NCBI GenBank assembly: GCA_002737345.1 | Contig: NSIK01000018.1 | Coordinates: forward strand, 66,417 to 130,416 | DNA length: 64,000 nt | Reading direction: 5' to 3' | Source: Nitrospirota bacterium | GTDB taxonomy: Bacteria > Nitrospirota > Nitrospiria > Nitrospirales > Nitrospiraceae | Shown here: positions 575-21,138 of the stretch, one piece after another | How the letters are laid out: the number at the start of each line of letters is the position of its first letter | How positions within the stretch are numbered: position 1 is the stretch's first letter | Notes under the pieces: model-generated | Database searches by the model: none | Seen by the model: the letters and a program-made list of their open reading frames with translations, nothing else | What the model was told of the DNA's origin: nothing | Made by a program: the position numbers and the translations under genes

Positions 575-1888
575 TTATGAAATCTTCGGCGGCGGCGAGC
601 CCGCCTTCACCTGCGACAGATAATCGACGATCTTTTTCAACGCCCCGGCGCTGAGCTTCTGCCCAAACACCTTCGGCATCGTATTGTCCGGGAATGGCTT
701 CACCACATAGGCACTCGGTGACACGATTGACTCCATGATGTAGTCCGGAACGGTCTTCGCGTCGCCCTTATAATCCGCACTCTTGATGCGAAGCGGGGCA
801 TTCGTCCCCTCTTCGAGCTTGGGGCCGATGGTGCCGACCGCGCCCGGGATACCGGGGATCGTGTGGCAGGCTACGCACTGGGCCTTCGCGAAAATCTGAT
901 CGACCGGCTCCGTACCGTCCGCCAGCAAAGCACTGGGCGGCCCGGCGGCCTTATCATCCTGCTGCTTCGGACGATCCGCCTCTGGGACAAACTTCTCATA
1001 CGACTTAATGATCTCTTCGTATGTCGGAGCATCGCGCCCTTCACGGATATAGAACCAGGTGTCCACAGCGGCCAACTCTGGAAGGCTCAACGAGATTGGA
1101 GGCTTGTGGATGGCCGGCATCGGGCTCTCTTTATCGTTCGTGCCCTTGACACCGTAGCCCGCGACAACGTAACAGCTCGGGCACGAGTGGGACTCAGCAA
1201 TATACTCCTGGGCGTTTTCGGCAGTCCCAGCCCCAGGGAAGGACTCTTTCTGCGCGTATTCTCTGGCCAGCGGCTTGCCCTTGTTGTACTTCGGATCTTC
1301 TATCCGTTCCTTACCGGCACGCTCAGGAAGGCCGTCCAGGTTTGGCGCGCGCTCGCCCAACATCCCCTTGTGGAAGGCGTGACAGAGCGGACACTGCCCT
1401 TTCCCGATTGCGCCCTGCACCTTGTTCTGCCCGATGCCGCCAAAAATGATTTTTTCGCCTTCGTCCGCCAGCTGCTGCGCCGTCATCGACTCGAACTGAA
1501 TCTTCTCTTCCTTGGGAGGAAAGCCGCCCTCTACCTGTGGTAGCCAATTCCCATATCCTGAAAGGCCAGCAGCGACCAGGAACATGAAACCACCGATCTT
1601 GAGGAGTGCGGCCTGGTTAGGGAAATAGATCCCCATCATGAAACACATCGCCGTAATGAGCACCAAAGAAACCGGCAACATCCGGTTCGCGCCGTAAAAG
1701 CTCGTCTCGTAATGCGCGATTGCCAGCAACAACATAAACGCGGCAAGCATCCCGATGGAGAGCTTGAACATCGCACGCTTCTTTGCTACGGAATCGCTGA
1801 TAGTCACCAGTGAGTATACGAGGAGGCTCGCCAGGAGCACGAGGAGCGGCCACCCTATTGAGATCGCTTCTTTTATCAGATCGCCCAC
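575..1888 (-). CDS. Membrane-anchored diheme cytochrome c
   Basis: 437 residues from a GTG at 1888, chosen because AGGAGG lies 8 bases upstream; a longer frame to 1951 has no such site. Four hydrophobic segments (roughly residues 8-115) form an N-terminal membrane domain. Two cytochrome c domains follow. The CPLCH motif lies at about 166-170 and CVACH at about 338-342, each with a later Met-Pro sequence that could supply the axial methionine. A third CxxC (CPSCY, about 236-240) lacks the histidine and is not a heme site. The gene lies 81 bases downstream of the bd-like oxidase on the same strand. The likely role is electron transfer at the periplasmic face between a quinol or cytochrome pool and the oxidase. 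The direction of electron flow is not visible in the sequence. Confidence 0.88.
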   Translation of the reverse strand: MGDLIKEAISIGWPLLVLLASLLVYSLVTISDSVAKKRAMFKLSIGMLAAFMLLLAIAHYETSFYGANRMLPVSLVLITAMCFMMGIYFPNQAALLKIGGFMFLVAAGLSGYGNWLPQVEGGFPPKEEKIQFESMTAQQLADEGEKIIFGGIGQNKVQGAIGKGQCPLCHAFHKGMLGERAPNLDGLPERAGKERIEDPKYNKGKPLAREYAQKESFPGAGTAENAQEYIAESHSCPSCYVVAGYGVKGTNDKESPMPAIHKPPISLSLPELAAVDTWFYIREGRDAPTYEEIIKSYEKFVPEADRPKQQDDKAAGPPSALLADGTEPVDQIFAKAQCVACHTIPGIPGAVGTIGPKLEEGTNAPLRIKSADYKGDAKTVPDYIMESIVSPSAYVVKPFPDNTMPKVFGQKLSAGALKKIVDYLSQVKAGSPPPKIS

Positions 1889-1969
1889 AGTTTTATCCTC
1901 CTGAGGTTTGGATAGGAGGGAGGCACGTGCACCGTGCCCCTCTCCCTCCAACCAAAATCCTAATGATGA

Positions 1970-3883
1970 TTAGTGGCCCCCAGCTGGCTGAGGGGCGCCG
2001 CCTAGAACTCCTGCCTTCGCTTCAACTGGCGCCTTTTTTATCCCGAGGCTGCCGAGCCAGAAGACAAAGAGGATGCTGATCCAGAAGAACAACACATTAA
2101 ACGAAATCATGTTCGCCGCGAATCCCACCGTATGGGTATACGCCCAGGGTGAGTTATCGCGCATGATCTCATTCACGTGCCAGAACAATCGGACCGATGA
2201 GCGGATGTAGCCCATCAATCCCATCATCCAGGTAAAGGCCGTCGCGAGCATGATCAAGGCATATTGCGAGCGGGCGGAAATCTTGCCCCACTCGATAGGT
2301 CCCATCTGCTTGGCGCCCTTCATCATGAAGCTATTCAGCGCAAACATGAAGAAGAGGCAGGACAAGGTTGTCGCCACCTGAGGCACCGACAAGCCGACCC
2401 GCACATTGGCCGGGATGTAATAGCCGAGGACCGCAAGCCCGATAATATTGAAATAGGCGCAACCGAAGAAGGTGCCCATGAAAATATTGCCGAACTTCGA
2501 CCAGGATACCGTCGAGACCTTATTGCCTCGCATGTACCAGACGAAGCTAAGAATGGTAGTGGTGATAATGACGTTGATACCACCATTCTTGGCCGACATG
2601 ACGCCATAGTTCCCCAGCACCGGGTGCTGCTGCCCGCCCATCGCCTTAAGCTCAGCTGGAGTCATGACGATCGTGTGGGGAGTAATGAACACCAGGTAGC
2701 CGCAGCAGAGCACGAACACGAGATACTTAATGTACCGTTGATACTTCTCCGCACCGCGCATCCGACCGAGCGCCTGCCAGAGATAGTAATTGGTGCTCAA
2801 GAAGAGAATGCCGATCATCGTGGCTTGGATAATGAAGAGCCAGGCCAGGAGGCCGCCCATGAGCGTAATACCCATCTGCTGACGGTAGGCATACACTTCG
2901 CGCATCAGCCAGTAACCCGCGAATGGCAAGGGGATCAAGAAAGCCACGCCGAGCGCCATGGCGATATATCCCATCCAATCATAGTGCGCGCGGTCTTCAT
3001 CCGTCTTGGAGGCCAGGAATTTATAGGCCGCGTAGGCCGCCACGACACCACCGCCGAACGCCATGTTACCCAAAATGCGGTGCACGTTGAGCGGGTTCCA
3101 GAGCGCGGTATGGATGACGTGCCAGATGTTCCCCAGGTACCGGCCCTGTTCATCCACGCCGGCTGGCGACATCATAAAACCGATCCAGGAGTTCGCCAGG
3201 AACATGAGCAAGGTGCCGATCACGTTCAAGATCACGGACATGCTCAAATGAATCCACTTGAGGAACCCTTCCTTCATCTTGTCCCAACCGTAATAGTAGA
3301 TATAGAGCGTGCCGCTCTCCGCTACAAACATCAGTGCATAGATATGCATGACCGGGCGGAAGATGCTGGAGAGATAGCCGAAGAATGCCGGATAGAGCGT
3401 CAGAAAGGTGAAGATCAGGATACCGCCAAGAATGGCGGTCAGCGAATAGGCCGTTAAGCTGATCTTGATGAAGTCATAGGCGAGCTGGTCATACCGTTTC
3501 CCCATCACCCTATCCTTCGTCACCACCCCCATAAACTCGATGACCATGCAAAAAATCGGAACCGCGAGCACGAAACTTCCGTAATAAAGGTGCTGCTGAT
3601 TCGCAAACCAGAGCAACACGCGGCTCTCGAAATTGTACCGAGGATAATCCCGAGGACCATCAACCGTCTTTGGCGCAGGCGCACCGACCACGATACCTTC
3701 CGTCTTATAATAGACGTCTCTCCCCTTCTCGACCTTCGCGTCACCATCCTTCTTCACCGCATCAGGCGCATCAGCACCCATAGCTAGTGACGGAAGGGAT
3801 ACGGCGATGGGGAGCAGGAGAAGGCCAATCATCGCGCAGAGCGCCATGATTGAGAACAGCTTCTTCCCGGCTACTAAACCCAT
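1970..3883 (-). CDS. Cytochrome bd-like oxidase, large subunit (copy 1)
   Basis: 637 residues from the ATG at 3883, which has AAGGAGG 6 bases upstream; an in-frame ATG 12 codons earlier has no such site. A signal-like segment is followed by about 60 polar residues and then a polytopic domain of roughly 14 membrane segments. Conserved elements shared with the second copy at 7443-9314 include the WF..QQH motif near residue 98, an NPLNVHR motif, the PFAGYWLMR motif, a TPHT motif and a KAMGG...HPV...GVMSAKNG block. The canonical CydA quinol-site GRQPW sequence is absent, so this is the diverged bd-like type known in Nitrospirota, not ordinary cydA. It is co-oriented with two tiny membrane proteins and a diheme cytochrome c. 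Terminal oxidase function is inferred from family and context. Its electron donor and real substrate are unproven. Confidence 0.88.
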   Translation of the reverse strand: MGLVAGKKLFSIMALCAMIGLLLLPIAVSLPSLAMGADAPDAVKKDGDAKVEKGRDVYYKTEGIVVGAPAPKTVDGPRDYPRYNFESRVLLWFANQQHLYYGSFVLAVPIFCMVIEFMGVVTKDRVMGKRYDQLAYDFIKISLTAYSLTAILGGILIFTFLTLYPAFFGYLSSIFRPVMHIYALMFVAESGTLYIYYYGWDKMKEGFLKWIHLSMSVILNVIGTLLMFLANSWIGFMMSPAGVDEQGRYLGNIWHVIHTALWNPLNVHRILGNMAFGGGVVAAYAAYKFLASKTDEDRAHYDWMGYIAMALGVAFLIPLPFAGYWLMREVYAYRQQMGITLMGGLLAWLFIIQATMIGILFLSTNYYLWQALGRMRGAEKYQRYIKYLVFVLCCGYLVFITPHTIVMTPAELKAMGGQQHPVLGNYGVMSAKNGGINVIITTTILSFVWYMRGNKVSTVSWSKFGNIFMGTFFGCAYFNIIGLAVLGYYIPANVRVGLSVPQVATTLSCLFFMFALNSFMMKGAKQMGPIEWGKISARSQYALIMLATAFTWMMGLMGYIRSSVRLFWHVNEIMRDNSPWAYTHTVGFAANMISFNVLFFWISILFVFWLGSLGIKKAPVEAKAGVLGGAPQPAGGH

Positions 3884-3963
3884 GGGATACCTCCTTAATG
3901 CATTCCGAAAAAGACTCATCGCGATCTCTGCAAACTCAACTCAACATAGAACGACCCCAAGGC

Positions 3964-4086
3964 CTACTTCCGGAACAGATACCAGAAGTCCAGGCCCTGC
4001 GAATCCATCAAAAAATGGTCAACCGCTGTGAAATAGGCAACGCAAATCACCAGCGACACGACGACATAAACGATTGTCTGGCCCAT
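3964..4086 (-). CDS. 40-residue single-span membrane protein of the oxidase operon
   Basis: ATG at 4086 to TAG at 3964-3966. A strong Shine-Dalgarno (TAGGAGGG) lies about 6 bases before the ATG. Residues 3-20 form one hydrophobic helix (TIVYVVVSLVICVAYF), and a polar, aromatic tail ending FRK follows. It sits 80 bases upstream of the bd-like oxidase and 60 bases downstream of a second 40-residue membrane protein, all on one strand. Single-span peptides of 30-40 residues (CydX, CbdX) are known subunits of classical bd oxidases. By analogy this could be an accessory subunit, but there is no clear sequence match to CydX. The ribosome site, length and position are seen; the role is inference. Confidence 0.75.
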   Translation of the reverse strand: MGQTIVYVVVSLVICVAYFTAVDHFLMDSQGLDFWYLFRK

Positions 4087-4146
4087 CAGACGCCCTCCTA
4101 CAACTTGCAGACGTTCAAAAAATCACAGCAACCCAGCGGCCCGCAC

Positions 4147-4269
4147 TTAGCAGGGGCACTGAATTCCTGCGAGCCAATAAAAAAACCACAACCCCATTGC
4201 ACAAGTGATGTAGAAAATCATCCGACCGACCTTGACCATAAACTCGCTATCCACCGTTGCGGTTGCCAT
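4147..4269 (-). CDS. 40-residue single-span membrane protein, first gene of the oxidase operon
   Basis: ATG at 4269 to TAA at 4147-4149, with an excellent Shine-Dalgarno (AAGGAGAT) 5 bases upstream. The peptide begins MATATVDSEF. A hydrophobic helix spans about residues 17-36 (MIFYITCAMGLWFFYWLAGI), and it ends in CPC. It is the first gene after the consensus promoter at 4421-4449, with an untranslated leader near 145 bases. The C-terminal cysteine pair is distinctive and could be a redox or metal site, but that is a guess. It differs in sequence from the other 40-residue protein at 3964-4086. It may be a small oxidase subunit or an assembly factor. Confidence 0.75.
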   Translation of the reverse strand: MATATVDSEFMVKVGRMIFYITCAMGLWFFYWLAGIQCPC

Positions 4270-4393
4270 CGTATCTCCTTCTCCTGATGGGAAAAAACAA
4301 CTACCTAGGTCGTATCAGCGAATCTCTTGACACGCAGACGCCCGTAATGTTATTCAAAATTCGTTACCGTCCACAAAAATCAGGGGAAAATCG

Positions 4394-4498
4394 ATGATCA
4401 AGAATTCAAAAGTGTTTGACATTATAGTTTTGGCCGGAATGGTTGTCAATATAATTTTGGCCGTGTTTCTAATTCTCTATCACTTTGATTTCTTGTAG
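4394..4498 (+). CDS. Possible 34-residue hydrophobic peptide (doubtful)
   Basis: ATG at 4394 to TAG at 4496-4498 on the plus strand. AGGGGA lies 6 bases before the ATG. A TTGACA box at 4327-4332 has only a poor -10 match 18 bases later. After MIKNSKVF nearly the whole peptide is hydrophobic, ending LILYHFDFL. It overlaps the strong minus-strand promoter at 4421-4449, whose AT-rich DNA could by chance encode hydrophobic residues. It may be a small membrane peptide or nothing. Confidence 0.25.
   Translation: MIKNSKVFDIIVLAGMVVNIILAVFLILYHFDFL
4421..4449 (-). promoter_or_regulatory. Consensus sigma-70 promoter of the bd-like oxidase operon
   Basis: Read on the minus strand, TTGACA (4444-4449) and TATAAT (4421-4426) are separated by exactly 17 bases. 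Both hexamers match the consensus at every position. The predicted start of transcription is about 145 bases ahead of the first small membrane-protein gene (ATG at 4269). Confidence 0.8.
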
Positions 4499-4530: not shown

Positions 4531-5409
4531 TCATTTCGTGCCGGAAACTGCACAGCGAAACCCAATTGTTTCATCGCGAAAGTCGGGAACCATTTTGCTC
4601 CGGCTAGTGATGCGAATATCGGCCCCTGTTGTCGCATACCCCCCACCTCGAAGCGCCCGATAGGTACCGGAATCAGGGCCCTGCGGGTTTTGCTCGGATG
4701 CCGAGGTGAAATAACTTTCCGCGTACCAGTCAGCCACCCACTCCATCACATTACCGGCTCCATCCATGACGCCGTAGGGACTCGTATCGGTTGGAACGAC
4801 GCCGACAGATGCCGCAACCTCATGGCCGTCCTGCACTCTGGCCCAATTTGCTCCGCCTGGCTGCTCTGTATTTCCCCAGGGCCAGAGCCGACCATCGGTT
4901 CCTCGCATGGCCTTCTCCCATTCCGCTTCCGTCGGGAGCCGCCGCCCTTTCCACAGACAATACGCCTCCGCATCCTCCCATGACACATAGACTACAGGCT
5001 GATTCAGCCCGCGCATCTTACTCATATTCTTCGCATAGCGGGAAGGGGGGCCAGACTTACGATGGCCCGTCGCCTCCACAAATTGCTGATACTGAAAATT
5101 GGTCACTTCATACCGATCGATCGCAAAGGCATCGAGCAGCAAGGTGCGCTGCGGGCGTTCATCGAATCCGTCATGATCGGTCCCACGGATGAAGGGGCCA
5201 GCCGGAATCGTGACCAGCTCTTCCTGGACCGGCTCTTCCCGAATAACCTGGGCAGGGTCGATCGGGGCCAACGGAGCCCCATCCGTAGAATCGCGCGGGG
5301 AATCCTCAAACGGCGTTAAGGTGGTGCCGCGGATGATCCCCATGATAGGGAGCGCAGCAAAGGCGAGGACGGCAAGAAGAAACAGGACCTTGAATTTAGT
5401 TTCGAGCAT
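4531..5409 (-). CDS. FGE-sulfatase-fold protein without catalytic cysteines (copy 1)
   Basis: 292 residues. An N-terminal hydrophobic segment (about 8-26) anchors or exports the protein. From about residue 65 it follows the formylglycine-generating-enzyme (SUMF1) fold: IPAGPFIRG near the start, YEVTNFQYQQF, a PVVYVSWEDAEAYC block, RRLPTEAEWE, GNVMEWV and a closing IGFRCA. The pair of cysteines that carries out catalysis in true FGE lies before the last block in the family. Here that stretch reads ITSRSKMVPDFRD, with none. Formylglycine formation is therefore unlikely, and a binding or structural role outside the membrane is more plausible. It is the last gene of the run, 5 bases downstream of a paralogue. 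Confidence 0.85.
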   Translation of the reverse strand: MLETKFKVLFLLAVLAFAALPIMGIIRGTTLTPFEDSPRDSTDGAPLAPIDPAQVIREEPVQEELVTIPAGPFIRGTDHDGFDERPQRTLLLDAFAIDRYEVTNFQYQQFVEATGHRKSGPPSRYAKNMSKMRGLNQPVVYVSWEDAEAYCLWKGRRLPTEAEWEKAMRGTDGRLWPWGNTEQPGGANWARVQDGHEVAASVGVVPTDTSPYGVMDGAGNVMEWVADWYAESYFTSASEQNPQGPDSGTYRALRGGGYATTGADIRITSRSKMVPDFRDETIGFRCAVSGTK

Positions 5410-5414
5410 GTCTG

Positions 5415-6341
5415 TTATGGGGCCGCGGGGCTATCTCCAACCTCCAGATCGCCGGCACAACGGAACCCGATCGTAATATCCGCCCGCCAATGTTTTGCGG
5501 TAAACCGCTTGGAGAGCCGCGCATTATGCTCGGTCTCCCGCCAAGACCCTCCCCGCACGACCTTCAAATCCTCTGTCGCCTCAGGCCCCTTCGGATCACG
5601 GTAGGGCGCTTGCTGGTAATACTGCTCGTCATACGAATCCGCAACCCATTCCGCGACATTCCCGGTCATGTCATAGATGCCATAGGGGCTTCGCCCGGAC
5701 TCGAACAATCCGGGAGGCGCGAGATACCGATACCCGTCTTCGCTCCCGTCAACATTGGCATTGGCGCGGCCGCTAATAAAGGTATCGCCCCAGGCATACT
5801 TCCTCTTCCCCTCGCCACGACCGGCCTTTTCCCATTCCGCTTCGGTAGGGAGGCGCTTACCGGCCCATTTGCAATAGGCCCCAGCCTCGTCCCAGGTGAC
5901 GCTCATCGCTGCAAACTCCGGCTTCAGCAGCTTGGATTGATCATCTTCGAACACTTCGATCTTGGGCAGCGGCCGCTTCGTCATTTTGGCAAACCGGGCA
6001 TATTCCTCTTGCGAAACCTCTTTCTTGTCGAGGTAGAAGGCCTTGAGAAACACCTGCCGCTCCGGCACTTCGTCCGGGTCCCCATCCTTGCTGCCCATAA
6101 TGAAGGGCCCTTCCGGGACCTGCACCATCTCGCGACCCTCGTCGCCGATCTTCGTTTTGTACATGGAGTAATCCTGCGACGGCACGCTGCTCCGCGCAGA
6201 ACGAGCCTCGGTCTTGATCGAGAGGACCAACTCTTTCATCTTCTTCGCCTTGTACGACTCGTTGACCATCAAACCGATCAGCAGGAAGAACGAGGCAAAG
6301 ACAAAAATGATTGAGCCGATGAGGACCTTCTTATTTTCCAT
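5415..6341 (-). CDS. FGE-sulfatase-fold protein without catalytic cysteines (copy 2)
   Basis: 308 residues. An N-terminal membrane segment (about 7-26) is followed by a lysine-rich linker and then an FGE fold from about residue 74. Recognisable blocks are VPEGPFIMGS, KEVSQEEYARF, SVTWDEAGAYCKW, KRLPTEAEWE, GNVAEWV, RGGSWR and IGFRCAG. As in its neighbour, the catalytic cysteine pair is missing: the stretch before IGFRCA is RLSKRFTAKHWRADI. The paralogues are adjacent and probably arose by tandem duplication. The position next to a bd-like oxidase gene suggests a periplasmic accessory role, which is inference. Confidence 0.85.
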   Translation of the reverse strand: MENKKVLIGSIIFVFASFFLLIGLMVNESYKAKKMKELVLSIKTEARSARSSVPSQDYSMYKTKIGDEGREMVQVPEGPFIMGSKDGDPDEVPERQVFLKAFYLDKKEVSQEEYARFAKMTKRPLPKIEVFEDDQSKLLKPEFAAMSVTWDEAGAYCKWAGKRLPTEAEWEKAGRGEGKRKYAWGDTFISGRANANVDGSEDGYRYLAPPGLFESGRSPYGIYDMTGNVAEWVADSYDEQYYQQAPYRDPKGPEATEDLKVVRGGSWRETEHNARLSKRFTAKHWRADITIGFRCAGDLEVGDSPAAP

Positions 6342-7442: not shown

Positions 7443-9314
7443 TCAGGCTTCTTGCGACGATGACGGAGCCAGGACCGACTCAGCCCCCTCGGCCAACTCT
7501 TCCCCCATCACCGGCAACTGATCGCGCTGGCACATCCAAAAGAGCGCAAAGACCGCGCCCCAAAAGACTACCATGTTGAGGGTCACCATTTTCGCCGCAA
7601 ACGCGAGGTCCGGCGTAAAGGCCCAGGGCGACACATCGGCCATCACCTCACTCACATGCCAGGCCAGCCGCCCGGAAGAGCGAATATAACCCATGAGACC
7701 CATGACCCAGGAGAAGGCGGCAGCCAATCCAAAAAGACCTACCATGCCTCTGACTGAAATCTTCCCCCATTGAACCGGCCCATGAACGAGCGCCCCCTTG
7801 AGCATCATACGATTGATCGCCAGCCCGACCACCAGCACCGTCAAGGTAGTTACAGCCTGCGGCGACGACAGCCCGACACGGAGTTTCGCCGGCAAATAGA
7901 ATCCATAGACCGAAAGGTAAATAATATTGATGGAGCCCAGCAGGAACAGCGCCCCGATAAGGAGGTTCCCCTGCGTGACCCAGGATACGACCATTGTACG
8001 ATTGGCGCGCCGGTAGTAGATGAAGCTGAGCGTGGTCACCAGAATCAAAATATTGGCCGCGCCGTTCTTCGCCGACATCACGCCATAGTTACCGACCACG
8101 GGATGCGACGAGCCGCCCATCGCCTTCACTTCACTGCCCGACATCATGACCGTATGCGGCGTCAGCCAAATGAAGAGAGCCAACATCAGCACCGCCAGCA
8201 GCGACTGATAGTAGGGCTGATACCGTTCCCCTCCTCGGAGGCGCGCCATGCTCTGCCAGAGATAATAGTTCACGCCAAGAAAAAGAGCGCCGATCAGGAG
8301 GGCCTGTACCACGAAGAGCCAGGTGAGCAGGCCGCCCATCATCGTCACGCCCATGCTCTGACTGAAGGCATAGACCGACCGCATCAACCAATAACCGGCA
8401 AAGGGCATCGGCAATAAGGCGCAAACCGTAACAAACAAAAAAACGTACCCCACCCAGTCGAAATAGGCACGCTCTTCGTCGGTCTTGCTGGTGAAGAAAC
8501 GATAGCAGGCATAGGCCAGGACCACCGCACCACCGGACATGATATCGGCCAGGAACCGATGGACATTCAAGGGATTCCAGAGCGCCGAATGGAGCAAATG
8601 CCATCCGTTCCCCAGAAACCGGCCCTGCGCATCGACGCCAGCCGGCGCCATCATAAAAGCCGACCAGGAATTCGCCAGAAACAACAGGGCCGTCCCGAAT
8701 AGATTCGCCAACAAGCCGATCGAGGCATGGGCCCACTTCAGCGATGGCTCAGCCAACCGGTTCCAGCTGTAGTAATAGAGGATGAGCAGCAGCGATTCTC
8801 CGACGAATACGATCGCATACAACGGCATAAAGGACTTAAACGTCCCGCCCATATACTTCATGAAACTGGGATAGAGCCAGATAAACATCCCCAGCATGAG
8901 GCTGCCGACCACCGCTGTCACAGACAGAGCCAGCAGCGCCACTTTGGCTAAATCCCGCGCGAGGCCATCATAGCGAAGGGCCAGCGACGGCTTTCTGCTG
9001 CTCAGCCCCAGGAACTCCAGCAGGACACAGAAAATCGGCAGAGCAAGGACGAACCCGCCGAAGTAGGTATGTTGCTGCGTCACGAACCAGACCAGCAATC
9101 GGCTGTCGAACGATCCGATGCGCGAATAGACCGTCTCTTGCGGAGAAGGGGCCGGAGGCCCAACGGGAGTTCCAGGCGTTTTAAAATAGAGGTCGGTGCT
9201 CTCCTCGGCAAAGGCCTGACTCTGAAGACCCCAGCCAATCCACGCGGCGGCCAGCACGGCCAACAGGAAGAGAGAGCACCACACAACGCCAGATGTTCGC
9301 TTCTTCATCCCCAT
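7443..9314 (-). CDS. Cytochrome bd-like oxidase, large subunit (copy 2)
   Basis: 623 residues, clearly paralogous to 1970-3883 over its whole length. It has an N-terminal hydrophobic segment, a short extramembrane stretch, the VWF..QQH motif, NPLNVHR, PFAGYWLMR, TPHTVMM and the KAMGG..HPV..GVMSAKNG block, then further membrane spans. Like copy 1 it lacks the CydA GRQPW sequence. Unlike copy 1 it is not followed by a cytochrome c gene and has no tiny membrane-protein genes in front of it. The gene directly upstream is a polytopic membrane protein ending 4 bases away. It may be a terminal oxidase with a different electron donor, or an electron-transfer module. Family membership is clear; the role is inferred. 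Confidence 0.87.
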   Translation of the reverse strand: MGMKKRTSGVVWCSLFLLAVLAAAWIGWGLQSQAFAEESTDLYFKTPGTPVGPPAPSPQETVYSRIGSFDSRLLVWFVTQQHTYFGGFVLALPIFCVLLEFLGLSSRKPSLALRYDGLARDLAKVALLALSVTAVVGSLMLGMFIWLYPSFMKYMGGTFKSFMPLYAIVFVGESLLLILYYYSWNRLAEPSLKWAHASIGLLANLFGTALLFLANSWSAFMMAPAGVDAQGRFLGNGWHLLHSALWNPLNVHRFLADIMSGGAVVLAYACYRFFTSKTDEERAYFDWVGYVFLFVTVCALLPMPFAGYWLMRSVYAFSQSMGVTMMGGLLTWLFVVQALLIGALFLGVNYYLWQSMARLRGGERYQPYYQSLLAVLMLALFIWLTPHTVMMSGSEVKAMGGSSHPVVGNYGVMSAKNGAANILILVTTLSFIYYRRANRTMVVSWVTQGNLLIGALFLLGSINIIYLSVYGFYLPAKLRVGLSSPQAVTTLTVLVVGLAINRMMLKGALVHGPVQWGKISVRGMVGLFGLAAAFSWVMGLMGYIRSSGRLAWHVSEVMADVSPWAFTPDLAFAAKMVTLNMVVFWGAVFALFWMCQRDQLPVMGEELAEGAESVLAPSSSQEA

Positions 9315-10457: not shown

Positions 10458-10961
10458 TCAGCCTTCTGCGTTGCTCTTGGAACCCATTCCAAAATAACGC
10501 GCCTTCACTTCTTCCATCAAGGCGACGGTGATGTATGTCTCACCACGATCTGCCACAGTCCGTTCCAGCTCAATGCGGGCCATGGCACGAACCGGCGCCG
10601 GCACCCGCTCCAAGCGACGCTCTGCTTCAGGATCCCACTCGATCCGTTCGCCGGTCCTCGGTCGAAGCAACGTGTCATAGGCGATCGCACACTCACCTCT
10701 GGTGCGCGCATCCTGCTCCACATCCGCACGGAATAACGGCACAAGGTACGGAGGCATGCGATCCAGCCGGTTCAGCGCGTCATCGGTCCACATCATCCGA
10801 TCGACAAGCCCACCGGTTTGGCCGGCAGGGACATCGATGCCAACCTTCAAGCCGCAGCCGCGACATTCCGTTCGAATGAACCATTGGGGCGTCCCATCAG
10901 CATAGGACCGTTCTTCAATCCCCTCTGTATGCATCCATCGACCACAGCCGCAGGTCAGCAT
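10458..10961 (-). CDS. Zinc-ribbon-like protein with two PCP_red domains
   Basis: 167 residues. The N-terminal 40 residues carry C4, C6, C33 and C36, a zinc-ribbon or metal-site pattern. Two copies of the small PCP_red module follow. The second, at about 110-163, is textbook: W-x-EAE-RL-RVP-PVR-MAR-E, then G-TYIT and a closing basic stretch. The first (about 57-100) is more diverged. PCP_red is best known from the C-terminus of the B subunit of light-independent protochlorophyllide reductase. Here it stands alone in a cluster with no photosynthesis genes. It lies between two membrane-protein genes of the oxidase cluster. A redox or cofactor-handling role is possible but not shown. Confidence 0.8.
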   Translation of the reverse strand: MLTCGCGRWMHTEGIEERSYADGTPQWFIRTECRGCGLKVGIDVPAGQTGGLVDRMMWTDDALNRLDRMPPYLVPLFRADVEQDARTRGECAIAYDTLLRPRTGERIEWDPEAERRLERVPAPVRAMARIELERTVADRGETYITVALMEEVKARYFGMGSKSNAEG

Positions 10962-16293: not shown

Positions 16294-19200
16294 TTACTTT
16301 GTTGAGACTGGGATGAGCTGCATCGGTTGCTGAACCGACGCGCTCTTCATCCCGGCTCCCGCTCCATGCAACGGCAGCAGACGGGTATCGCCAGACGGCA
16401 GCACCCGCACATAGCCCCACTGCCCGGACTGGGAGTACGGCAGCCGCTGGTTGCTGTACACATAGTCGCCCGGCAAACGGTAAGGACCGCCGGCCGAAGG
16501 CAGGAAGGCATCGAGGACCTCCGAACCGGAGAACTCGACCACGCTGATCATGTCTGCGCCGCGCATGAACGGCTCGATCGGCCACTCATGTTTCTCGACG
16601 CTGAACATCCCGTTCTGCTCATTGTTCGCTCCGATCACATGGATACGCACGGGATCGCCGACATGCGCTTCGATGAGCGGAGTGTACGGATCTTCTGGCT
16701 TGTCCGCTTTGCACGGCTGGAACATTCTGCCCAGCGAGCAACCCTGCTCCTCACGATACTTGTACGGCTCCGACCGGTAGTTGATACCGGTCAAACCCGC
16801 AACATTCTGCACATACGGCATGAAACTCGTGCCGATGATGTTGTCTTCATCCTGAAAGAACAGCGCCACGTCACGATAGTTCGGACGCATCTCGTTCCCG
16901 GGCACCGAGCGATCGAGAATCACGTCGGCCGCCCAGGCGTTCTTATTCGTGATATCAGCGCCGGTCTTTGCATCCCGGTACTTGGATCCCTTCGGGCCCA
17001 CGATAATTGCGCCAAACAACCCGTTGCGCGGGTTGACCATCACGTTGCCTCCATCCCAGACCAACGACGTCGTTTCACCATTGAACGGATCCGCGTAGTA
17101 GGTGTAGGTCCGTTCGGCGCCAGGCACGATCGTCTGATCGCCTGGGTTGTTGCCGACGTTGATGCCCAACGAATCTTTCGGATCAAAGGCCAATCCGATG
17201 GCGGAGAAGGAAGCCTTGCTCGCCTGCATCTTGTTCTTCAGCTGCACTTTGACGCAATCCCCAACGTTCACGCGGAGCGTGAGCGGCATGGGTTGCGCAC
17301 CGCTCGCCAACTTCGCAGCATCGTCTTCCAAGGCATAGATCTTGGCCTCGGGGTTGCTGATCTGGATCGTCCGCTCGAAGTCCACTTCGATGGAGGCCGG
17401 CGCCTTCGCATTGAACTTCATCGACGGATAATCCAAGGCCACCACTTTGAAACTCTTCACCGGGGCGTCAACCGGACAAACTGGCAAGGCCTTGGGGATC
17501 TCGCCCTTGATGGAGAACCCGGCCGTCAGTTTCTTCAAATCGGCCTGCTCCTTATCGTAGACACGGATAATGCCCCAGCCACCCTCGGAGAACTTCGAGG
17601 AGCGGCCGTTGAAGTGGATGTAGTCACCCGCTTGCAACCGCGGCCCGCCGGCTTGTGGCACTACAAGGTCATAGCGCTCGGCAATGCCGACGTGCATCGA
17701 ATTCTTCCGGTTGGCATCGCCTGCATATCGCTCACTCAAGAACGTATGGCCGGACAGGGTCCAGGTCACCGTTTCGTTCATCAAGGTATGCAACAGCCGA
17801 AACACCATCGTATCACCGACATACGCCCTCAAGAGCGGCGTGTAGGGATCACCATGAATCTGGCTATTGAAGGCCTGCGACACATCCGGGTTGGTGGCTA
17901 ACCGCTGCGCGATCGGCGCAGCCCGGAAATTCAACCCGCTGCCTGTGGTATGGGTTCCACCGTTCAAGAAGGGCATCGGCGTCATATACAACTTATCTGG
18001 CATCATGAAGGACACGGTCTTTCCCGCTTCGAGCGCCACTTCGACCGGCTGCCCCGGGGGATTGCCCGCGGTCACGATGTTAACCGTGTGTGGCACCGTA
18101 TCGTGCATCTGGACGATCAACTCACGGAAGCTGTTGTTGACGCCATGGCCCACCGGTTCCACCGTGTGAATGTCCGCGATCGGTCCGCTCCTGACTAGCT
18201 TCCCGGTCTTCGGATCATGGTAGGTCGATCCCACTGGCTCCGCGATGAAGGTGCCGAATCCGCCGTGCGGCCAGGTGGTCGCGCCAAACGCATGGTCGTG
18301 CCAAAACACGGTGCCCACGTCCGCATCGACCCAGAACCGCTGACGCACGAACTCCACCGTCACGATGTCGTTCGCCGGGTGATCGTTCTTCAGTCCCTTG
18401 GCCAAGGTAATCGTGCTGCCACTAATCGCCTTGATGCGCGAGATTTCATTGCCCGTCACATTGTCGGCGCCAATAAGGATGAGCGTCCCGACATGGTATT
18501 GACCCGCGTTCTTCACCGCGATCGAGGCTGCGTCTTTTTTGACCGATGCCGTTAGCACCGTGTTCATTGGAGCCGGCAACCCCTTCTTGTTCTTCTTCTG
18601 CAACATCGTGAACGGGCGCACAGACTGCTCATAGGAGAAACCGGTGATCACGCCGTCAGACGACTGGTTGTCAAACTGGAGAAAATGCCAATGGGTATTG
18701 ATCTTCGACGATTGGAAGTTTGTGTAGTCGTCGTCGTCCCACTCGCTGGTCAGCATCCAATCCACGCAATCATAGATGTTGCCACGAACGACTAACGGCA
18801 ACTTGAGGTCGTCGTTGGCCCGGATCGCGGCTTCTTCTTCATGGAGCACGTAGATCAAGCCGTTCGGATCGACCACCGCCGGTTCCTTACCCTGCGCCTT
18901 GGCGATCTTGATGGGCAACTTGATGAAGTGGACGTTGTAGCTCTTCCGTCCCGCGTTCTCCGGGCAGAGGCTCCACACGCCGTTCTCACCAGGCTTAGCC
19001 TGATCGGTGCTCTCCTCGCCGTTCGCATCTCGGCGGATCATCTCCAACCAGGGCGCTCCGGAATGGTTCGGGGAGAACATGACCCGACGGCCGAAGTGCG
19101 GCGTCAGGTGCGGCCAGGCCACTTTGCCCGTCATGGCCTCGAACATAATCGGATGGCGTTTACCAGGATGCGTGGACTTGTACTTGGGATTGTCGATCGT

Positions 19201-21138
19201 GTTCTCGCGCTCGCTCATCGCACGATTGCCGTCCCAGGCCCAATCCAGCACGGTCGCGTCATAGGCGGTGGTCTGGCCCTTCTCGTCGTCCTTGTGGCCA
19301 GGCTTGCCCATGGTGGGCATCTGCATCGCGACCCAATCCTTCACTGTGATAGTGGCAGGGTTGGTGGTCCAGTTGCTCTTGCCCTTGTTGATGATCGTGA
19401 ATTGCTTCCCGAACCAATCCACCGTCTGACCGACCAACTTATCCGACGAAATCGGCGTCTTAATCCGGCCCTTGCGGTCCGGCAATTCTTGAAGATCCGG
19501 CATCACATCGTTCCGGAGGTCTCCCTGCTGGATCGTGTTGTACACGCGCCAGTAGCCCCACATACCCGCCACATAATGGTGTGCGACGTGGCAATGGAAG
19601 AGGAAATCCCCCGCCAACTGCTGGCAGAGACCGGAACCGCACTCCGTCTCCAGATCGAGAGCTTCTGAAGGCCCGATCACTTCGACGTCAACCCGGTCCG
19701 TCTTGGCGCGAATCACGGGATACTTAACCGGACCGTTCACGGCCGTCGCCCAGAGGTTCATGTCGTCGATTGCCCGCGGGCTGCGGGGCCACCGGATGGT
19801 TCCACCGTGAGGATGGTGGGAATGGAACACTTCCGATCCACCGTGGACCAGGCGAAACTTAGCCGGGTCACCGAGGTAGGATCGGGGAATCGTCGGTGAG
19901 GGATCGCCAAACGTATAGGAGCTGTAGCCCATCGACTCGTCTTCAAAGCCGAAGTACTCATGCTGTACATGCATGTTGTTGATGCCGAACGGTTCGCTCC
20001 GATAGTTAATCGCGCGGCCACCGGGACGATACGCATCGGTCAACGGATCGCGCTGTGGGAGAAAGTCGCCCTTCTTGTTCAACGGACGGAACGCTTCGTC
20101 ACCGACTTCATGATAAATTATAACAAACTCCCGAAAGTCAGGGCCGGTTCCGTTCTTAATCATGACCTGCCAACCACTAGAAGCGGGCGCGAGATCGCCT
20201 GAACCAAGTGCCTCGAGATAGCGTGAGCCCCGTGGCTCGACAATGAAGGCCCCCATCAACCCCATCACCGTCAACTCACGGTCTTGGGCATACGTATGAA
20301 ATTGACGGACACCTTCCTGCGTATTGGGGTGGATATACCACTCAAATGCACCGCTTTTATTTTCCTCAACGACGGAGTCAGGATTGGTCGACGTCGCCGC
20401 AGCTCCGGTAGCGCTTACCACCATGCTAGATCCATGGATATGCAAGCTAACTGGCCCACTCCCCTCCTCTAACTTATTCACAAGGTTAACCTTGAGGCAG
20501 TCCCCCTGATTGGCGCGGAAGACCAGAGGCTGAATCCACTGGGCCTGCACGCCGGGAATTACGGCTCCAGGATCATACCCTTCCTTGTCACGGGCTTCTT
20601 TATTCTTGGCTTCTTCTGCGCGCACCTTGCCGAGATTTTCCTCCAGCACATACATGTACCCAGGATAGAAATCGAGCCACTGGTTCAGCGTGATCTCCAC
20701 GTTGATCGCAAGCACGTTGTACTGCTTCACCGGAGCCGTGGCCGGGCACTTTCCGCCGCCGGTCAAGGAGACCGGTTCTACGCGAGGATCGGACACGAGG
20801 AGCAGATCCTGCCCACCCGCACCATACTGGTGCATCATAGTGGAGGTGTTGTACATGCCGGTGTTGATGCCCTGCACCTGAGGATCCTTAGCCATCTGGT
20901 CCATGACCCGCTTGTGCTGCTGTTCAACCATCGCAGAACGATCGGGCTTGCCGCTCATCGTATCCTCGACGATCGTCTGCCCCTTAAGCTTCTCCGCCCA
21001 GCCGGGCAGCTGATGATTCATCGCAACATGCTGCGATGTGCTCTCGGCGGATGCGAGCGAGACCCCGAGAAGGGCCAAAGCTGCCATCGCGCCAAGCATG
21101 CGGGTAGGCATACAAAGCCGTAGCGTATGAAAAAACAT
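16294..21138 (-). CDS. Giant multicopper oxidase, 1614 residues
   Basis: A signal peptide (about 1-31, SLASAES) is followed by several cupredoxin domains. Copper motifs in order: HIHG (233-236); a degenerate RQFHTY (279-283); HSHHPHGG (439-446); HCH-VAH-H-YVAGM (515-526), a complete type 1 site with C516, H521 and M526; THWHF (815-819); FWHDH (946-949). The usual order in three-domain oxidases is two HxH motifs, then HPxHxH and HCH. Here intact HxH motifs also occur after the HCH motif, so the metal-site arrangement is permuted or duplicated. A further cupredoxin-like region (about 1220-1580) has lost most ligands. Size and multiple domains recall MnxG-type oxidases. The substrate could be Mn(II), Fe(II), Cu(I) or organic, and is not shown. 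It forms its own transcription unit, with a terminator at 16225 and a dyad-containing promoter region at 21210-21251. AAGGAGG lies 8 bases before the ATG. Confidence 0.88.
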   Translation of the reverse strand: MFFHTLRLCMPTRMLGAMAALALLGVSLASAESTSQHVAMNHQLPGWAEKLKGQTIVEDTMSGKPDRSAMVEQQHKRVMDQMAKDPQVQGINTGMYNTSTMMHQYGAGGQDLLLVSDPRVEPVSLTGGGKCPATAPVKQYNVLAINVEITLNQWLDFYPGYMYVLEENLGKVRAEEAKNKEARDKEGYDPGAVIPGVQAQWIQPLVFRANQGDCLKVNLVNKLEEGSGPVSLHIHGSSMVVSATGAAATSTNPDSVVEENKSGAFEWYIHPNTQEGVRQFHTYAQDRELTVMGLMGAFIVEPRGSRYLEALGSGDLAPASSGWQVMIKNGTGPDFREFVIIYHEVGDEAFRPLNKKGDFLPQRDPLTDAYRPGGRAINYRSEPFGINNMHVQHEYFGFEDESMGYSSYTFGDPSPTIPRSYLGDPAKFRLVHGGSEVFHSHHPHGGTIRWPRSPRAIDDMNLWATAVNGPVKYPVIRAKTDRVDVEVIGPSEALDLETECGSGLCQQLAGDFLFHCHVAHHYVAGMWGYWRVYNTIQQGDLRNDVMPDLQELPDRKGRIKTPISSDKLVGQTVDWFGKQFTIINKGKSNWTTNPATITVKDWVAMQMPTMGKPGHKDDEKGQTTAYDATVLDWAWDGNRAMSERENTIDNPKYKSTHPGKRHPIMFEAMTGKVAWPHLTPHFGRRVMFSPNHSGAPWLEMIRRDANGEESTDQAKPGENGVWSLCPENAGRKSYNVHFIKLPIKIAKAQGKEPAVVDPNGLIYVLHEEEAAIRANDDLKLPLVVRGNIYDCVDWMLTSEWDDDDYTNFQSSKINTHWHFLQFDNQSSDGVITGFSYEQSVRPFTMLQKKNKKGLPAPMNTVLTASVKKDAASIAVKNAGQYHVGTLILIGADNVTGNEISRIKAISGSTITLAKGLKNDHPANDIVTVEFVRQRFWVDADVGTVFWHDHAFGATTWPHGGFGTFIAEPVGSTYHDPKTGKLVRSGPIADIHTVEPVGHGVNNSFRELIVQMHDTVPHTVNIVTAGNPPGQPVEVALEAGKTVSFMMPDKLYMTPMPFLNGGTHTTGSGLNFRAAPIAQRLATNPDVSQAFNSQIHGDPYTPLLRAYVGDTMVFRLLHTLMNETVTWTLSGHTFLSERYAGDANRKNSMHVGIAERYDLVVPQAGGPRLQAGDYIHFNGRSSKFSEGGWGIIRVYDKEQADLKKLTAGFSIKGEIPKALPVCPVDAPVKSFKVVALDYPSMKFNAKAPASIEVDFERTIQISNPEAKIYALEDDAAKLASGAQPMPLTLRVNVGDCVKVQLKNKMQASKASFSAIGLAFDPKDSLGINVGNNPGDQTIVPGAERTYTYYADPFNGETTSLVWDGGNVMVNPRNGLFGAIIVGPKGSKYRDAKTGADITNKNAWAADVILDRSVPGNEMRPNYRDVALFFQDEDNIIGTSFMPYVQNVAGLTGINYRSEPYKYREEQGCSLGRMFQPCKADKPEDPYTPLIEAHVGDPVRIHVIGANNEQNGMFSVEKHEWPIEPFMRGADMISVVEFSGSEVLDAFLPSAGGPYRLPGDYVYSNQRLPYSQSGQWGYVRVLPSGDTRLLPLHGAGAGMKSASVQQPMQLIPVSTK

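Follow-up and report, generated by a model that had tools for sequence, protein, structure and literature searches.

Do the two 40-codon open reading frames that precede a cytochrome bd-like gene in the genome of a Nitrospirota bacterium of the Nitrospiraceae encode proteins, and do these proteins serve the bd-like protein as small subunits? The question is raised by a stretch of 64,000 nucleotides (positions 66,417 to 130,416 of contig NSIK01000018.1, assembly GCA_002737345.1), referred to below as the window, which had been interpreted earlier from its letters without database searches (the sequence-only reading). The frames are designated p1 (4147–4269) and p2 (3964–4086), and the bd-like gene (1970–3919) encodes a protein of 649 amino acids; all three lie on the minus strand in the order p1, p2, bd-like. 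Comparison with related genomes indicates that p1 and p2 are real membrane proteins with one helix each, most likely co-transcribed with the bd-like gene, an equivalent of bd-like_3 of N. moscoviensis, and probably its small accessory subunits. A probability of about two in three is assigned to this reading.

Both frames consist of 40 codons followed by a stop at codon 41 and, as described in the sequence-only reading, are preceded by ribosome binding sites on the minus strand: AAGGAGAT (4273–4280), three bases before the p1 ATG, and TAGGAGGG (4093–4100), six bases before the p2 ATG. Shine-Dalgarno-type motifs precede p1 in the majority of loci. The products, MATATVDSEFMVKVGRMIFYITCAMGLWFFYWLAGIQCPC for p1 and MGQTIVYVVVSLVICVAYFTAVDHFLMDSQGLDFWYLFRK for p2, include one hydrophobic stretch each and are predicted to span the membrane once. 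In p1 an N-terminal cluster of lysines lies ahead of the helix, and the protein ends in Cys-Pro-Cys (CPC).

Coding constraint was assessed as the ratio of nonsynonymous to synonymous differences per site (pN/pS), using uncorrected Nei-Gojobori counts over the ungapped C-terminal codons. The ratio was 0.14 at genus level and 0.18 at family level for p1, and 0.17 and 0.30, respectively, for p2, which bears out the synonymous bias that the earlier interpretation had proposed as a check. Variable columns were concentrated at third codon positions. Alternative frames gave ratios near or above 1, except for the antisense frame that shares wobble positions and is interrupted by a stop in nearly every sequence. 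Hence, judged by their substitution patterns, p1 and p2 are under purifying selection. The antisense open reading frame at 3850–4287 (plus strand), which covers both, was unsupported in this comparison and was rejected. Being short and occupying the place of a 5' leader, the frames could encode leader peptides that regulate downstream translation, or be open by chance. This explanation is given almost no weight: conservation of the peptides reaches their last residue, with changes that are synonymous, and homologues of the frames are still found at class level.

A frame matching p1 was found in 211/236 Nitrospirales genomes, in 148 of the 154 good ones among them and in 35 of 37 genera, and p2 was found in 92/98 genomes. 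A third small gene, p3, which is divergent from p1 and p2 and is described below, was present in 93/98. Both p2 and p3 are missing from five genomes (G059, G069, G150, G203 and G231), and p2 alone is additionally missing from G108, where p1 directly adjoins the end of its contig. Relatives of the bd-like protein occur in 146/147 genomes of the family. Among the 15 family genomes that lack p1, 13 also lack a near-full-length bd-like orthologue (best E-value weaker than 1e-224, calculated per genome as in all genome searches). In the other two, G059 and G124, the bd-like match starts within the gene, where the contig apparently breaks off.

The two peptides were also retained in order, as the sequence-only reading had anticipated for genuine genes. 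Thus, p1 and p2 precede the bd-like gene in 62 of the 64 orthologue loci L001–L064, the remaining two (L005 and L051) ending before the region, and p3 lies divergently ahead of p1 in 61 of the same loci. Profile searches of further loci recovered p1, p2 and p3 in three more families of the order (f2, f3 and f4), and the arrangement p1-p2-bd-like is maintained across four families. In relatives from other families of the class, with a bd-like protein 63–67% identical (L082, L083 and L085), p1- and p2-like frames are located between a gene similar to SUMF1 and the bd-like gene.

The C-terminal ends of the peptides are conserved in different ways. In a 35-row alignment, C38-P39-C40 stands at the extreme C-terminus of p1 in families f1, f2 and f4 with no exceptions. 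In family f3 the protein ends in FATVVHH and has no CPC, and in the class relatives the tail ends in or contains histidine (YHN, LYH and SHSYGGH; FTH in L084). The CPC ending singled out in the earlier interpretation is therefore invariant in three families, and by alignment a lineage-specific feature within the p1 family, where it may replace histidine ligands. The p2 tail is conserved as VDH.LMD.QGLD.WYLFRK. In seven genera (g5, g7, g10, g12, g15, g20 and g21; loci L033, L035, L036, L038, L040, L045 and L046) p2 is longer, with 67–74 residues and two predicted helices, owing to an extra N-terminal hydrophobic stretch and a lysine-containing loop. Application of the positive-inside rule to these long forms places the p2 tail, like the p1 tail, on the periplasmic side by prediction.

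Upstream of p1, the sequence-only reading had noted a consensus promoter, and a sigma-70 promoter matching the consensus in 12/12 positions (TTGACA-17-TATAAT; 4421–4449, minus strand) is indeed found there. What that reading overlooked is that the promoter lies wholly inside another gene on the opposite strand, p3 (4394–4498, plus strand), whose predicted product of 34 amino acids is likewise a membrane protein with a single hydrophobic stretch. The earlier claim of two different tiny proteins in front of a diverged bd-like gene is right, and a third candidate joins them. Of the three peptides, p3 shows the strongest conservation (90% mean column identity), with pN/pS of 0.17 at genus level and 0.12 at family level. 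The TATAAT hexamer is read from codons I10-I11 (ATT ATA) of p3 and TTGACA from V17-V18-N19 (GTT GTC AA). Of the 71 distinct p3 sequences from families f1, f2 and f4, 70 contain the 12/12 promoter. The wobble base is invariant in only 5 of 24 degenerate codons with a conserved residue; all four wobble sites within the hexamers are among them, a placement with a chance probability of P = 0.0005 when relatedness is ignored. Elsewhere the wobble bases vary freely (G15, I20, L26 and L34), with at least five codons used at L26 and at L34.

The position of the promoter entirely within p3, together with the low synonymous rate of p3, might suggest that p3 is not a protein and is conserved solely on account of the operon promoter opposite. 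This is very improbable. Outside the hexamers synonymous changes occur while residues stay fixed, the pN/pS values are 0.12–0.17, and family f3 and the class relatives carry the p3 peptide without the promoter (at best 7–10 of 12 positions). The peptide therefore does not owe its existence to the promoter, which it probably predates. A shadow open reading frame over p3 (4354–4449, minus strand) was unsupported in the coding comparison and was rejected. Alignment of 27 loci revealed a second conserved intergenic block (4327–4356, plus strand), with TTGACA at 4327 followed by TGTTAT. From its sequence, it may be the p3 promoter, with a good -35 and a weak -10 element, or the site of a regulator. 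In the former case, the two transcripts are predicted to overlap by about 50 bases across the p3 start codon.

The sequence-only reading had assigned p1 and p2 to an oxidase operon. A CydA-like gene does follow them. The N-terminal half of its product, and only that half, matches PF01654 (Cyt_bd_oxida_I; E = 5e-20), giving it a CydA-type core, and an AlphaFold2 model (mean predicted local distance difference test score 78) had E. coli CydA/AppC as its best match in the PDB. The orthologue in N. moscoviensis NSP M-1 is 92% identical and maps to 3.442 Mb; another bd-like gene lies at 3.447 Mb, and two further relatives are near 0.70 Mb. The orthologue is followed there by proteins with two, one and two CxxCH motifs, and the same order is kept in the genome studied here, the remaining cluster genes of which lie just beyond the window. 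No CydB-type gene follows the bd-like gene; c-type cytochrome genes occupy its place. By its neighbourhood, the gene fits the equivalent of bd-like_3, which is clustered with two c-type cytochromes and alt_NxrC_2 and has bd-like_4 nearby: two c-type cytochromes, a diheme alt_NxrC and a second bd-like gene were all found close by. Cluster gene names are those of PMC6606698; the assignment of alt_NxrC_2 relies on its size, number of hemes and location. The terminal oxidase proposed for Nitrospira is a different gene, bd-like_2, which would lie at the other locus, near 0.70 Mb, beside alt_nxrC_1 (NITMOv2_0740). In N. moscoviensis, genes of the bd-like_3 cluster belong to the 40 with the highest transcription (PMC6606698), and the cluster has been reported to be conserved in Nitrospina and anammox bacteria. 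Its bd-like proteins retain the heme b ligands and lack quinol-site residues (PMC3578206).

Known small oxidase subunits offer the nearest comparison. No Pfam or NCBIfam family covers p1, p2 or p3, and at E ≤ 1 none of 35 p1, 33 p2 and 27 p3 members matched the CydX family or any other known small oxidase subunit in Pfam. Weak matches, among them DltX (E 0.0026, two p1 members), were judged to be due to chance, and a PDB sequence search with p1 and p2 returned nothing credible. In size (40, 40 and 34 residues, apart from the long p2 forms) and in having one predicted transmembrane helix, the three peptides agree with CydX, which has fewer than 50 residues. They differ in operon context, as CydX is encoded with cydA and cydB, whereas p1 and p2 precede a bd-like gene that has no CydB-type companion. 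Because neither sequence nor operon context agrees with CydX, p1 and p2 were not filed under that name. That they are nevertheless true homologues of CydX, CydS or CydH diverged past recognition has only a slim chance of being correct: equal size, the single helix and linkage to a CydA-like gene agree with it, and it is opposed by the failure of the Pfam searches, the absence of a CydB gene, the location of p1 and p2 ahead of the large gene rather than after it, and the lack in bd-like proteins of the Q-loop, with which CydX is correlated (PMC3578206, PMC4325964).

Canonical CydX/CydS (AppX) packs on CydA near heme b558 and is required for assembly of bd oxidases (PMC8951039). With these proteins p1 and p2 share a length of about 37–40 residues, the single helix and linkage to a CydA-type gene. 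The present locus is distinguished by having no detectable sequence relation to them and no CydB, by a partner without a Q-loop, and by two genes that precede the large subunit plus a divergent third. CydH/CydY (YnhF) of E. coli bd-I, which occupies a different site on CydA and obstructs a path for oxygen (PMC8951039), is likewise a second tiny single-helix subunit and is encoded outside the operon, as is p3; it gave no sequence match, and its gene is unlinked to the cyd operon, whereas p3 is adjacent and divergent. The CydY and CydZ small frames (PMC4325964) are also conserved membrane frames recognised by comparison of cyd operons, but they belong to canonical cydAB operons and none has been described there for Nitrospira bd-like genes. 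Small membrane proteins of the TorE/NapE family reinforce the anchoring of c-type cytochromes and improve the respiratory system (PMC6134056), but their partners are reductase systems, such as trimethylamine N-oxide reductase, and no CydA-like protein. CcoM and CcoQ are small accessory helices of cbb3 oxidases (CcoM has 36 residues; PMC10433244), but their partner is a heme-copper oxidase of unrelated fold. Neither of the last two groups matched p1–p3 in Pfam. By analogy, p1–p3 probably work like CydX or CydH and are not recognisably homologous to them.

The sequence-only reading regarded two tiny proteins at a diverged oxidase as a new arrangement. The cited literature on Nitrospira bd-like genes does not mention small subunits at this locus; however, E. 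coli bd-I already has two tiny subunits, CydX and CydH/CydY (PMC8951039). What is new here is the p1–p3 families, their number and their partner.

From the observed conservation, coding constraint, linkage, shared absence and promoter conservation we infer translation, membrane topology, binding and the functions of the tails. The accessory-subunit role of p1 and p2 is suggested by the tiny helix, adjacency to one CydA-like gene, joint absence and conserved tails. The promoter inside p3 would drive the p1-p2 operon, and p1 and p2 would bind a membrane complex of bd-like_3, the c-type cytochromes and alt_NxrC_2. Each helix may pack against the CydA-like core and stabilise the core and its hemes, as CydX/CydS does on CydA. 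The putatively periplasmic tails, Cys-Pro-Cys or histidines in p1 and QGLDxWYxFRK in p2, could bind a cofactor or serve as docking sites for the c-type cytochrome modules, so that p1 and p2 would connect bd-like_3 to these modules; p3 would be a third candidate subunit of the same complex. A fuller version, put forward tentatively and with less than even confidence, has three new micro-subunit families on one nitrite oxidoreductase (NXR)-associated bd-like complex, the p3 coding sequence doubling as the perfect antisense operon promoter of overlapping face-to-face units, and a p1 tail that binds metal or heme in the periplasm and has changed between histidine and Cys-Pro-Cys during evolution.

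Several observations weigh against p1 and p2 being subunits of bd-like_3. Profile searches did not recognise p1 in family f7 and found none of p1–p3 upstream of four second bd-like copies 78–80% identical (L065, L066, L067 and L070), so that bd-like copies without adjacent p1 or p2 exist. Orphan p1-type frames ending in CPC occur in three genomes with no bd-like neighbour, and p1 may thus act outside the complex. In addition, p3 lies outside the operon, and its product could act with a different protein. The orphan frames (L105, L106 and L107; G004:C28, G011:C3 and G105:C82) have longer N-termini, and the neighbourhoods fetched contain no bd-like gene.

The orphan copies also agree with p1–p3 being factors that help to assemble the complex or to insert its heme or copper or mature its cytochrome c, rather than resident subunits, as do the terminal Cys-Pro-Cys (histidine in relatives), which resembles a metal-binding end, and the presence in the cluster of a DUF420 membrane protein, of a family that includes oxidase assembly factors. 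This alternative is considered unlikely, though it carries more weight than the others: such tight linkage and such small proteins are usual for structural small subunits, and p2 and p3 have no comparable terminal Cys or His motif.

Other bd-like genes were compared as well, and the specificity seen there, and at the four second copies above, also counts in favour of the subunit reading. None of p1–p3 was found by profiles upstream of two sampled genes of the bd-like_4 type (L068 and L069). In the window, the second bd-like gene (7443–9314, minus strand), the bd-like_4 equivalent by position, has no small gene directly ahead, the preceding gene ending 5 bases away. When the bd-like_1/_2 region was set against N. 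moscoviensis, no small membrane gene stood out convincingly; eight hydrophobic intergenic frames were rejected there, those that matched being rich in Ala or Pro or apparent coding shadows of the opposite strand.

Downstream of the bd-like gene, a membrane-anchored c-type cytochrome of 458 amino acids (575–1951, minus strand) has two CxxCH motifs and an invariant CPxC[YF] motif. The latter, at residues 257–260 of the product, is a third motif without a heme-ligand histidine. A shared thiol site of this motif and the CPC of p1 was considered and rejected, because CPxC[YF] is invariant even where p1 lacks CPC and the two do not co-vary. On the other side of the block, a formylglycine-generating-enzyme/SUMF1-like protein is encoded at 4531–5409 (minus strand), and class relatives likewise have a similar gene upstream of the block. 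The gene at 4531–5409 is one of two tandem genes of this type (4531–6341) that adjoin the oxidase block, at least one of which is kept at class level. Further along the window are a 167-residue protein with a PCP_red domain of the protochlorophyllide reductase family, encoded inside the respiratory cluster (10458–10961), and a 1614-residue protein (16294–21138) whose sole match is a short multicopper-oxidase stretch.

At p3, a protein gene and the promoter of the operon on the facing strand share one stretch of DNA, a clear and deeply conserved example of such double use. In Nitrospira, which are nitrite-oxidising bacteria, transcription of the bd-like_3 cluster ranks with the strongest, and subunits overlooked for their small size would be missing from models, heterologous expression attempts and proteomic searches of the bd-like_3 complex. 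For purification of that complex, p1 and p2 offer handles in the form of tags, deletions and co-expression.
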